DNA of 64,000 bases from Sulfuricella denitrificans (GTDB taxonomy: Bacteria; Pseudomonadota; Gammaproteobacteria; Burkholderiales; Sulfuricellaceae), in the NCBI GenBank assembly GCA_002632355.1, contig NSJJ01000004.1, forward strand, positions 124,001 through 188,000. The letters run 5' to 3'. Numbering within the stretch: the stretch's first letter is position 1; each line of letters starts with the position of its first letter. Shown here piece after piece: positions 15,721 through 20,380 of the stretch. The notes under the pieces are model-generated. The model saw only the letters and a program-made list of their open reading frames with translations, had not been told where the DNA came from and ran no database searches. The translations under genes and the position numbers were made by a program.

Positions 15721-17517
15721 CTATAATTCAGGCTTGCCGAAATAATACCCCTGCCCCCAGTCAACCCCCATATCCCGTAGCATTTTTGCCGTCTCGCCAT
15801 CTTCGACAAACTCCGCAATCGTAGTGATTCCCAGACGCCGGGACAGCGACACCATGCTCTCCACCATATGGCGAACCCGTTCATTGCTGCGCATGTTCTG
15901 CACCATCCAGCCCTCAATTTTCAGAAAACTGACAGGTAGTTCGGCCAGATACAGAAAAGATGAATAACCACTGCCAAAATCATCCAGAGCCAGACGAAAA
16001 CCAAAATCCAGCAGCGGCTGCAAATCCTGCCGCATACGCTCAAAATCTGACAGCAATTGCCGCTCGGTAATTTCCAGGACTATAGGCCTGCTTCCCCTGA
16101 ATTCGATATTACCAGGGCACATGGACACAGCATATTCAAGCATCTGCTCGACCAGTTCCTTGCGCGCAAGGAACTGTGGCGACAGATTCACAAAATGTGC
16201 AAATCCCGGATCAGAGCCATTTTCAAGCGAGGAAGTACAACGCGCCATCGCCTGGCGAACGATGGTGCGATCTACTTCGTGAATCAGGTTAACGCCTTCC
16301 GCCGCTTCAATAAACTCGCCCGCTGGTATGGCTGAACCATCACTCATGATCATCCGGGCCAAAGCCTCGTCAGCCACAGGTTTTCCTGTTACCAAGTCAA
16401 CTATCACCTGATATGCAGCCACCACCCGGTGTTCCTGCAAGGCGCGCTGAAGCATACCGGCGCGCCACAATGTCGTACCTTCCCTGCCATCGCTGGCTAC
16501 CACACAATCACGCCCGTGCCGCTTTGCTTCATAAAGACGCCCGTCAGCATCAGAAAGAGTACGAGAAATATCGGCATCTCCCGACTGGAATTCGCCAACG
16601 CCAAAGCTTGATGTCACCTCGACGTTACCGGACCGGGTCTTGCAAGGACGGGTTCTGAGTGCAAGGCGGACCCGCTCCACTGCGGCATAGGCATCATCTC
16701 CATTCGAATGATGCAGAAACAGAATAAACTCTTCGCCACCCCAGCGCGCGATCCAATCCCCCTCGCGCAAAGCCGCTCGCATGGTCCGGGAGGCGTGTTG
16801 CAAAACCTCGTCACCCACGCCATGACCAAAGTTATCGTTAATCAGCTTGAAACGATCAAGATCGGCTACCGCTATGGAAAAACCGCAATCATCCCGTCTG
16901 GCGCGTGCAATTTCCTCAACAAAACGCAGCTCTGCAGCCCGGCGGTTTGGCAAACCGGTCAAAGCATCGGTCAGCGCCTGGGTTTGCAGGGCCTGAGTCT
17001 GGCGTGTGCGCAACAACATCAGTCCAAACCAGTTTGCCAGCAGCTCCATGAAAACCTTGTCATCATTGCTGAATTCATGCCCAGCAAGGCATTGGCGGCG
17101 AAGAAACACCAGGGTACCGAATATCTCATCACCGACCCAGATAGGAACGCCTGCATAGACCTGCAAACCAGAACTTCGAACCACCTCAACATTTTGAAAC
17201 TGCTCGCTTTCCTGCATATGGTAGAAGTAATAACTTTGCGCTCCCTGAGTCGCTGCTGAACAGAGTGCCTCCAGGGGGCAAACCTCATCGCCCTGAAACA
17301 GGCCCAGGTTATCTACCAGATAGCGGATGACAAAGTGACCTTCCTTTGCTTCCCCGATAAGTGCCGTATCCAGCTCCAGCGCATCCCGTGCAAGAGTCAG
17401 CATCAGCATTGCTTTTTCTTCATCGGACTTGGATCGATTGGTGGCGAGTTGCCATAATGCCTGAAGCCGAGCCGATTGATTCCGCGCCTGGGAGAGCAAA
17501 GTGGATTGTTGAGTCAT
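15721..17517 (-). CDS. GAF-GGDEF-EAL cyclic-di-GMP signalling protein
   Basis: 598 residues without membrane segments. A GAF-type sensor domain covers about 30-170. The GGDEF domain (180-345) has an intact GGEEF active site at 260-264 and an RxxD inhibitory site at 251-254. The EAL domain (365-598) keeps EAL at 384-386, VNLSP, ITE and DDFGSGYSSF; LKID is changed to LKIE. Both a diguanylate cyclase and a phosphodiesterase activity are thus possible, with GAF ligand deciding which dominates. It is a single gene with its own promoter, lying after the hfq cluster on the same strand. The signal sensed is not evident. Confidence 0.92.
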   Translation of the reverse strand: MTQQSTLLSQARNQSARLQALWQLATNRSKSDEEKAMLMLTLARDALELDTALIGEAKEGHFVIRYLVDNLGLFQGDEVCPLEALCSAATQGAQSYYFYHMQESEQFQNVEVVRSSGLQVYAGVPIWVGDEIFGTLVFLRRQCLAGHEFSNDDKVFMELLANWFGLMLLRTRQTQALQTQALTDALTGLPNRRAAELRFVEEIARARRDDCGFSIAVADLDRFKLINDNFGHGVGDEVLQHASRTMRAALREGDWIARWGGEEFILFLHHSNGDDAYAAVERVRLALRTRPCKTRSGNVEVTSSFGVGEFQSGDADISRTLSDADGRLYEAKRHGRDCVVASDGREGTTLWRAGMLQRALQEHRVVAAYQVIVDLVTGKPVADEALARMIMSDGSAIPAGEFIEAAEGVNLIHEVDRTIVRQAMARCTSSLENGSDPGFAHFVNLSPQFLARKELVEQMLEYAVSMCPGNIEFRGSRPIVLEITERQLLSDFERMRQDLQPLLDFGFRLALDDFGSGYSSFLYLAELPVSFLKIEGWMVQNMRSNERVRHMVESMVSLSRRLGITTIAEFVEDGETAKMLRDMGVDWGQGYYFGKPEL

Positions 17518-17675: not shown

Positions 17676-18845
17676 CTATGCTTCAGGCCAGTAGTCAGTT
17701 GCTATTCCGCTGCCCAGGTCCGCCTCGACCAGACGCCGACGCACCTCAAGCAGGCGCTCAATCAGTTTGGGCTCCTTTTTCTCATAGGCATTGGCATCGG
17801 CTACACGGCTCACCACGACGCCGAGAAGTTCAGTGATCGCGTTGCCAATGGAATTCTGGCTGATGGTGACGATCAACTTGCCCTCGTCGTTTCGGTAGAT
17901 GAGTTGCTTGAAAGCCGGCTGCCAGCGGATGGCATTGGCGTATTTGGCATCGGTAATGCAGCGGTCCCTGACCTTCTTTGCCGTTTTCAGAAAGTCGTTA
18001 TTGAAAAGCAACACGTTTTCGATTTGATCCGGAAAGTAGGCATCTGACGGCATCGGCGCATTGCGCGTGGAAACCTGAGAGAAAAAAGTCCGGTAAAAAT
18101 CGATGAACCCCTTCAGCACCAGATCATATTCATGCCAGAAACGCACATCCTCCAGCGTCGCCGCTCCGCCGGGAATTTCCCAGCTCGGCAGACCCTGGGG
18201 ATAACCGGTCAGATCGAAGCGTGCGGCCTCATCGCTTACCGGCCTCAGCACTTCCAGATGAAGCGCCTTGCAGATGAACTCACGATAGACGTCATGCATA
18301 TATTTCTCGAACAGGGAGTGCTGGCCGCCATCGGTAAGATTGGGGTTTTTCGGATCGGCCGGCTTGGCGTTTCGCAGCTCGTCCATGGGAAAGACGATGA
18401 AGTGATTGTGTAACATGCGGATGCTGGGAACGCCGGGGGAGGTCAGCGGCCAGGTGGCATCCAGGCTCGCCTCGCCGGCCAGCACCAGATGCTGTGCCGG
18501 GTCCGGATACTGTTCCAGCATGTAATCGATGATGACCTGATTCATCCGGTTCCACACGTGCCTGACGTTATCCGGTACCTGGGTGCGACGCACCGGCCGC
18601 CCAAGCGGATTAAGGATGCACTTCGAAGTATTGTAGATGATCGAGGTATCGAATTCGGTACTATGCCCAAGCGCCTTGCGATAGAGCAGCAGGTTTTCCG
18701 GGTTGATCAGCAACCCGTTGTTATGCTCCAGGTCGTTGAGATTTTCCGTACTGTTGAAAAACTCATTGGGCTTCATGCCCTCGGGTACATCCAGGGGGAT
18801 GGGGCGGTAAGGCGTAACGATTTCACGCGGGCTGGATTGTGTCAT
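17676..18845 (-). CDS. Unrecognised 389-residue protein
   Basis: No signal peptide or membrane segment. The codon pattern and position on an open stretch support a real gene, but I do not recognise the family. Visible features: an Asn/Asp-rich N-terminal third, a central segment with AGEASLDATWPLTSPGVPS followed by RMLHNHFIVFP (His146-x-His148 in a beta-strand-like context), an aromatic-rich region about 235-265, and a charged C-terminal helix (350-375). The His-x-His strand after a small-residue loop faintly recalls the galactose-1-phosphate uridylyltransferase/HIT fold, but this is too weak to assign. The gene is on the same strand as der, 128 bp downstream of it, with a hairpin directly before the start codon. 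Confidence 0.8.
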   Translation of the reverse strand: MTQSSPREIVTPYRPIPLDVPEGMKPNEFFNSTENLNDLEHNNGLLINPENLLLYRKALGHSTEFDTSIIYNTSKCILNPLGRPVRRTQVPDNVRHVWNRMNQVIIDYMLEQYPDPAQHLVLAGEASLDATWPLTSPGVPSIRMLHNHFIVFPMDELRNAKPADPKNPNLTDGGQHSLFEKYMHDVYREFICKALHLEVLRPVSDEAARFDLTGYPQGLPSWEIPGGAATLEDVRFWHEYDLVLKGFIDFYRTFFSQVSTRNAPMPSDAYFPDQIENVLLFNNDFLKTAKKVRDRCITDAKYANAIRWQPAFKQLIYRNDEGKLIVTISQNSIGNAITELLGVVVSRVADANAYEKKEPKLIERLLEVRRRLVEADLGSGIATDYWPEA

Positions 18846-18851
18846 GGTCTA

Positions 18852-18891
18852 TGGTAAAAGTCGGAGTTACTCTGGATAGCACTTTTTACCA
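18852..18891 (-). promoter_or_regulatory. Leader hairpin before the 389-residue protein gene
   Basis: TGGTAAAAGT (18852-18861) and ACTTTTTACCA (18881-18891) are complementary apart from one extra T and enclose 19 bp. The element ends 6 bp before the start codon, so in the mRNA it would overlap or block the ribosome site; no clear Shine-Dalgarno is otherwise visible. Confidence 0.4.
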
Positions 18892-18973
18892 CAGCCATCA
18901 GACACGAGGCACTAAATAATTCAAATGCAAGGATAAGATTGCCGCATCGTTGATAAAACGCAACTGGAAGTCA

Positions 18974-20380
18974 TCAGTATTTTTTGCCGTAGTTCTTGCG
19001 GCTGCGCCGGCGCTTGGTATGGGCAGCCCGCTCTTCAGCCTCTGTCTTGGGTGCGGGCGTTCTACCCGCAAAAGGGTTCTGGCCCTGCTTGAACTGTACC
19101 CTGAGTGGAGTACCCTCAAGTTCAAAGGCTTTGCGGAAGGTACTTTCCAGATATCGCTTGTAGCTGTCAGCCACACCCGCCACTGCGGTGCCGTGCACAA
19201 TCACCAGCGGCGGATTGGAGCCCCCCTGATGTGCATAACGTAATTTTGGCCGGATCGGACCGATCTTGGGCGGCTGGTGTTTTTCTGTTGCAGCCATCAG
19301 CACCCGTGTCAGCATGGGGGTGGACATTTTCTTCATGGCAGCGGCAAAGGCGCTGTCGATAGACTTGAACAGACCGCCCACACCGCTACCCTGCAAGGCG
19401 GAAATGTAGTGATACTTGGCGAATTCAAGAAACTGCAGCTTGCGCGCCAGATCCCCCTTGATCACTTCACGCCGGGCTTCGTCCAGGCCGTCCCACTTGT
19501 TCACCGCGACCACAAGCGCCCTGCCCGCTTCCAGAATGAAGCCAGCAATATGTGCGTCCTGCTCGGAAACGTCCTGACGCGCATCCAGCACCAGCACGAC
19601 CACATTGGCGTCTTCGATGGCCTGCAATGTCTTGATGACAGAAAACTTCTCGATGGCTTCGAATACCTTGCCCCGCTTGCGCACGCCTGCGGTGTCAATC
19701 AGGGTATAGCGCCGGCCGTCGCGCTCCAGATCCATGTAAATGCTGTCGCGCGTCGTGCCTGGCTGATCGAAGGCAATAACCCGTTCCTCGCCAAGCAGGC
19801 GATTGACCAGTGTGGATTTGCCCACATTCGGGCGGCCGACGATGGCAACCTTGGGATGGTCTTCTTTATCCTCGATTTCCTGCTCATCGGGAAAACTTTC
19901 CAGCGCCAGCTCGATCAGGTCGCGCACACCTTCACCGTGAGCTGAGGAAATCACCAGCGGATCGCCCAGCGCCAGTTCATGAAATTCAGCTGCAACAACC
20001 TCGCGGCGCATGCCTTCAGCTTTGTTGACTGCAAGAAATACCGGACGACCCGCTTTGCGCAGGCCATCTGCAATGATCTTGTCCTGTGGCGTCAGCCCCT
20101 GGCGGGCATCTACCAGAAACACGATGCAATCCGCCTCATCCACAGCCTGCAGGGTCTGCTTCGCCATCTCGTGCAGGATGCCATCCCTGGCGACCGGTTC
20201 GAAGCCGCCAGTATCCACAACAAGGTAGGGTTTGCTGCCCACCAGGCCGTGACCATAATGACGGTCACGGGTCAGGCCAGGCAAATCAGCCACCAGCGCA
20301 TCACGACTCTTGGTCAGGCGATTGAAAAGCGTGGATTTTCCGACGTTAGGCCGCCCCACCAGAACCAGAGTCGGCTTCAT
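18974..20380 (-). CDS. der: Ribosome assembly GTPase Der (EngA)
   Basis: 468 residues with two tandem G domains: [14 protein letters not shown] near residue 8 with DTGGF, and [14 protein letters not shown] near residue 185 with DTAGV, each with its NKxD motif. A C-terminal KH-like domain ([12 protein letters not shown]) and a strongly basic tail follow. Der binds the 50S precursor and is essential for large-subunit maturation. The start overlaps the bamB stop (ATGA), an arrangement conserved in beta- and gammaproteobacteria. Confidence 0.97.

Follow-up and report, generated by a model that had tools for sequence, protein, structure and literature searches.

The window analysed here is a stretch of 64,000 nucleotides from Sulfuricella denitrificans. 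It carries, on its minus strand, an unbroken open reading frame (ORF) of 389 codons, with its ATG at 18845 and its stop codon ending at 17676. The encoded protein has a computed mass of 44.5 kDa and a pI of 5.6. The downstream neighbour, at 15721-17517, is a GAF-GGDEF-EAL gene according to Pfam search, and the gene upstream on the same strand (18974-20380) is taken to be der from two GTPase motifs rather than from a family search. The features of the gene are as follows.

17676..18845, minus strand: gene for the 389-residue protein, a predicted HIT/GalT-superfold nucleotidyltransferase and candidate adenylyl sulfate (APS):phosphate adenylyltransferase-like enzyme (from the ORF, relatives, alignment and model)
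18402..18410, minus strand: codons for the HxH motif (His146-Asn147-His148), from which none of the 159 aligned rows departs (position from the ORF; putative role, with His148 the proposed AMP carrier)
17829..17909, minus strand: codons for the C-terminal block of highest conservation, residues 313-339 (KQLIYRNDEGKLIVTISQNSIGNAITE) (position from the ORF; role putative)

No family in Pfam or NCBIfam scored above cut-off for this protein, nor did any Pfam family when 91 relatives were scanned individually, and neither a sequence search nor a profile search of the PDB returned a match. The original prediction of a clear coding sequence without recognised domain, lying between a signalling gene and der, is borne out by these results. 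Its description of the protein as an orphan is not, as 398 loci encoding relatives were found in a scan of genome_contigs. An alignment of 159 rows, some of them duplicates, shows no variation at 103 positions, among them His61, His146, His148, Lys313, Gln314, Asn331 and Asn335. This conservation, together with the 398 relatives, shows that the ORF is a real gene. Duplicates are present in both the 100-locus and the 159-row alignments, where the copy from the window appears as L001 and again as L101 and several G-genomes repeat genome_contigs records; the partial sequence L168 was left out of the 159-row alignment and of the motif counts.

The best 80 of the 398 loci have a best-segment identity of 79% or more. 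Named records among these 80 are mostly sulfur- or iron-oxidising proteobacteria and include Sulfuricella, Sulfurimicrobium, Thioalkalivibrio, Gallionella, Sideroxydans, Sedimenticola, Candidatus Thiodiazotropha and the symbionts of Lamellibrachia, Escarpia and Solemya, while many of the others are metagenome bins named to class level only. Whole-genome searches identified the gene in 29 of 100 relatives, in 45 of 370 genomes of the class (two of them, G191 and G448, with decayed copies) and in 26 of 299 genomes of the phylum. The last figure includes G504, in which a weak match within a 783-codon frame (C17:4263-4376, L170) is confined to the C-terminal 38 residues of the family; this genome was excluded from the counts of other-class carriers. 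Identity falls to 57-63% for proteobacterial members of other classes, and a class-level search around one of them found the gene in 1 of 114 genomes. Viral contigs and plasmids were searched for the gene and yielded no copies.

A scan of the window for promoters and terminators yielded about as much as shuffled sequence. Some 9-mers are more frequent upstream of the relatives than in shuffles, an excess probably due to the common descent of neighbouring sequences. Upstream of the gene, in window positions 18846-18960, a TGTGGTAAAAA-like sequence is common to some relatives and stands at the same place in several; it may be a promoter element or mere shared descent.

Predicted fold and histidine motif

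Structure prediction and profile-profile comparison, both proposed in the original prediction, gave different outcomes. The AlphaFold2 model computed from alignment A2 (91 rows) reached a pLDDT of 89.2 and a pTM of 0.91. An earlier model from the narrow alignment A1 (32 rows) had a pLDDT of 56 and its fold search returned noise, a defect mended by adding the relatives at 57-63% identity. With VIA-align, the top match of the A2 model was 6id0 chain U (Z 10.3, rmsd 4.3 A), along with four further spliceosome chains, all of which we take to be CWF19-type proteins with HIT-like domains. Other matches were the Ap4A phosphorylase Apa2 (4i5w; Z 10.0, rmsd 4.6 A, 200 residues aligned), Rv2613c (3wo5; Z 9.0, rmsd 4.0 A, 144 aligned), a uridylyltransferase (6k5z, Z 8.6), the GalT-like AT5G18200 (1zwj) and its ADP-glucose complex (2h39, ADP-glucose phosphorylase), both at Z 8.4, and the DUF4931 protein 4qvu (Z 8.3). 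HIT proteins followed at Z about 4 to 7, and clearly unrelated folds appeared from Z 3.1 downward. Foldseek was weak, with GalT-like 1zwj the sole match at E <= 0.001. The 389-residue protein is accordingly predicted to have the alpha-beta fold of the HIT, GalT and Ap4A-phosphorylase proteins.

The sequence comparison was negative. In hhalign, A2 gave no signal above column shuffles against 11 PF09830 proteins, and sub-regions, with 30 shuffles each, gave none against Ap4A phosphorylases either; the test has weak power because the alignment is shallow (Neff 1.9). The profiles PF19327 and PF09830 matched none of 91 members. Homology to Ap4A phosphorylases was not supported by sequence profiles, either for the whole protein or by parts.

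The RMLHNHFIVFP segment, placed by the original prediction in a strand after a loop of small residues, is present and so arranged in the model: a strand at 119-126 is followed by a loop with GEASLDATW...GVPSIRM and by a strand at 146-153 that opens with HNHF. This order would correspond to that of the HIT motif. His61, His146 and His148 are each invariant in 159 of 159 rows. The available text of PMC7705103 gives the motifs as HphiHphiHphiphi for HIT and HXHXQphiphi for GalT, and the family keeps two of the three defining positions. The third, directly after HNHF, is I in 117, M in 24 and V in 18 of the 159 rows and is never H or Q. The suggestion of a His-x-His site for nucleotidyl transfer thus stands at the level of the predicted fold, which matches Ap4A phosphorylases, GalT-like and HIT proteins, and falls short in the classical third H or Q. 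For the metal site offered as its alternative, nothing in the analysis speaks.

The Ap4A phosphorylases (Apa2, Rv2613c; PF19327 and PF09830) are the best named matches of the predicted fold. Like the family, they have HxH at a strand start, and a C-terminal N-A...G...V-R stretch looks alike by eye. Residues 312-349 of the model, predicted as strand-strand-helix-strand, also resemble by eye the C-terminal part of PF09830 proteins; the conserved block 313-339 spans two of the predicted strands and the start of the helix. The two groups differ in that HxHxQ of the phosphorylases is HNHF[IMV] in the family, which also lacks Pfam and profile-profile signal, and the 389-residue protein exceeds most of the bacterial PF09830 proteins compared by about 90 residues and has extra predicted helices. 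To GalT, ADP-glucose phosphorylase and HIT proteins the likeness lies in HxH and in the predicted fold, at Z about 7 to 8.6, whereas the third H or Q and any sequence match are absent.

Gene neighbourhoods

A check of carrier species and their neighbouring genes, also called for by the original prediction, led to sulfur and iron oxidisers, with sat-aprBA, adk, pfp and hppA as neighbours in some lineages. Two genomes of different families, G055 and G086, were chosen for inspection after a survey had shown the gene near aprA, and in both the order is sat, aprB, aprA and the family gene, all on one strand. A terminator-like hairpin is seen in the sequence between aprA and the family gene in both (L206, L207), so the gene is a neighbour whose co-transcription is not clear. 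Just upstream of the family gene at these two loci there is a ATTCAATAACTTA-like sequence. Past the family gene, G055 has three genes, for a CxxCxxCC protein, a CbbQ-like AAA protein and a VWA protein. Genes of these three kinds come directly after aprA in the genome to which the window belongs (L141), and the 389-residue gene is found at another place on that contig. Two aprA copies in this genome score over cut-off, L141 (G000:C19:14000-26000) and L142 (G000:C23:1-16000). One of them follows sat, and the other is at a separate locus with an upstream membrane-protein gene that is aprM-like by eye.

Counted by eye, the gene or its remnant lies within about 10 kb of aprA in seven of 81 aprA-positive carriers (G055, G086, G382, G447, G462, G191 and G448). 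Four small genomes, G298, G382, G191 and G448, are taken from size and gene content only to be SUP05-like sulfur oxidisers and symbionts. The surroundings of the gene in these genomes include pyrophosphate-dependent phosphofructokinase (pfp), adenylate kinase (adk), membrane pyrophosphatase (hppA) and sat-aprMBA, not all in each, the neighbours being named by NCBIfam for sample genes. The order pfp-adk-gene-hppA is found in G298 and, with a decayed gene copy, in G191; sat-aprMBA is nearby in G382, G191 and G448, and neither apr nor sat was found in G298. In G191 and G448 adk, hppA and pfp are 89-97% identical to those of G298, and the decayed copies (L139:9397-10558 and L140:9689-10153) lie between intact hppA and adk, with sat and aprMBA kept. 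This suggests that the gene is dispensable in these two genomes.

Since the gene can be lost beside a retained sat and aprA, an APS-binding hydrolase or sensor, which would remove or report APS without energy conservation, has to be considered. Fhit and Hint proteins have been reported to hydrolyse APS, the predicted fold is HIT-like, and the missing third motif residue means that transfer chemistry may be altered. We nevertheless regard such a role as improbable, for 103 invariant positions over 159 rows and the adenylate-kinase neighbours both suit a flux enzyme better.

Among the best 80 of the 398 loci, adk is found in the flank of 8, pfp of 7, a SoeA-like gene of 7 and a SoeB-like gene of 8, all in Thioalkalivibrio records, and aprMBA in the flank of one Gallionellaceae record. 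SoeAB were named from similarity to a DMSO-reductase-type pair and from PMC6382920, in the available text of which soeABC is reported for every Thioalkalivibrio strain. The der context of the window recurs in nine of these 80 loci, and linkage to sulfur genes is missing at most of them, the window included. In another 20 loci, of which 15 belong to other classes, no neighbours of the adk, pfp, Soe or apr type were seen, and the same holds for six of eight additional new loci. Where any context is seen, it is one of sulfite oxidation and not of sugars, unlike that of GalT-type enzymes.

Co-occurrence with aprA

The presence of aprA was called from TIGR02061 over cut-off. In the 370 genomes of the class, aprA is present in 41 of 45 carriers and in 73 of 325 non-carriers (Fisher 1.6e-19, uncorrected for phylogeny); G310 has two sub-cut-off pieces, and G291, G298 and G377 have none. 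In further genomes of the order it is present in 24 of 28 carriers, against 1 of 25 non-carriers chosen out of 67. It is missing from four order-level carriers: three genomes with a completeness of 74-90% (G018, G020, G021) and G067, in which only a contig-edge piece of the family gene was seen. Four non-carriers, with genomes 79-89% complete, come from the same family; aprA passes the cut-off in three of them and is present as a piece in the fourth. Carriers of other classes have it in 16 of 22 cases; G494, G523 and G573 have only sub-cut-off pieces, the match is very short or weak in G498 and G581, and G558 has at most a weak one. The family thus occurs with AprBA in most carriers of all three samples. 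The 73 aprA-positive genomes without the gene mean that it is not required.

A subset of 184 genomes was also scored for dsrA and RuBisCO, with RuBisCO counted as negative for seven weak profile matches whose best E lay above 1e-50. All 19 carriers of this subset have aprA, dsrA and RuBisCO, so the association is with the guild as well as with apr. A general protein of sulfur lithotrophs, tied to dsr or autotrophy and linked to apr by guild membership only, would account for these 19 carriers at the thresholds used. It is very improbable in our estimation, as the gene adjoins sat-aprBA and is found in 19 of 54 genomes with both dsrA and aprA but in 0 of 9 with dsrA and no aprA over cut-off, these being small numbers and two of the nine having aprA pieces. 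The three subset genomes with aprA and no dsrA also lack the gene.

ATP sulfurylase (Sat) would share with the proposed enzyme the substrate APS and the release of sulfate, but belongs to a separate family. Its gene is present in all 35 chosen aprA-positive non-carriers (about half of the 73), once as a fragment below cut-off, and in 43 of 45 carriers, the exceptions being G263 and G298. Replacement of Sat by the family gene was rejected on these counts; as the two co-occur in 43 of 45 carriers, neither replaces the other. Replacement of the classical Ap4A phosphorylase was rejected too, since PF09830, found in 5 of 45 carriers and 6 of the same 35 non-carriers, is not mutually exclusive with the gene. 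A classical Ap4A-phosphorylase gene (PF09830) is found at a distance of about 22 kb from the family gene in G401:C16 and of about 11 kb in G457:C8.

These counts bear also on a phosphorylase of the same fold acting on another nucleotide, Ap4A (NpnN) or ADP-glucose, in the nucleotide and pyrophosphate economy of autotrophs. The nearest named folds are indeed Ap4A and ADP-glucose phosphorylases, and pfp, adk and hppA adjoin the gene in some lineages. Such an enzyme is unlikely, in view of the PF09830 genes that are not replaced, the absence of the gene from all 44 subset genomes with RuBisCO and without aprA, and its position directly after sat-aprBA in two families.

Proposed role in sulfite oxidation

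Passages of PMC8551704 and PMC8232776 describe two exits from APS, one through ATP sulfurylase with pyrophosphate and one through APAT, which uses phosphate and gives ADP that is converted by adenylate kinase. It is the APAT exit that the predicted HIT/GalT fold, the invariant HxH, the mostly aprA-bearing hosts and the sat-aprBA and adk neighbours of some lineages appear to fit best. From fold, motif, aprA co-distribution and synteny, the protein is probably, with some reserve, a cytoplasmic HIT/GalT-fold adenylyl-sulfate:phosphate adenylyltransferase-like enzyme in the APS branch of sulfite oxidation; we infer its cytoplasmic location, substrate, reaction, physiological direction and the role of His148. 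Several points count against this reading: the lack of a sequence-level link to Ap4A phosphorylases (at Neff 1.9), the I, M or V in place of the third H or Q, the carriers without aprA over cut-off (G291, G298, G377), the 73 aprA-positive genomes without the gene, the many loci unlinked to sulfur genes, the hairpin after aprA in G055 and G086, and the guild association.

In the proposed scheme, APS reductase would form APS from sulfite and AMP. The enzyme would move the AMP of APS onto His148, with release of sulfate, and pass it from His148 to phosphate to give ADP (net APS + Pi -> ADP + sulfate), and adenylate kinase would convert two ADP to ATP and AMP. It would act alongside ATP sulfurylase, phosphate being needed in place of pyrophosphate. 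The 389-residue protein may in this way harvest energy from an intermediate of sulfite oxidation, because a nucleotide-transfer fold is predicted for it and it travels with sulfite-to-sulfate genes.

Cleavage of APS with phosphate has already been described, from enzyme activity; a search of open PMC papers, Pfam and NCBIfam found no family model or named gene for it. Should the family prove to be that enzyme, an ATP-yielding step would be added to hundreds of sulfur- and iron-oxidiser genomes, including those of animal symbionts, and models of the energy yield of sulfite oxidation would change. More tentatively, and at less than even prospects, the proteins may form a previously unrecognised HIT/GalT-fold family that has no orthologue among characterised nucleotidyltransferases, uses a reduced two-histidine motif to split APS with phosphate or a different acceptor, and provides a second energy-conserving exit from APS in sulfur-oxidising proteobacteria.

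APAT is adenylylsulfate:phosphate adenylyltransferase, EC 2.7.7.5. The enzyme of Thiobacillus denitrificans ('ADP sulfurylase') was reportedly assigned to a new nucleotidyltransferase family, going by the title of a paper by Bruser, Selmer and Dahl in 2000, and GalT and Ap4A phosphorylases are said to have been named as its relatives. The reaction proposed for the 389-residue protein is that of APAT and both come from sulfur oxidisers. They may differ in size: the APAT subunit is said, with some uncertainty, to be near 41 kDa, against the 44.5 kDa computed for the 389-residue protein.
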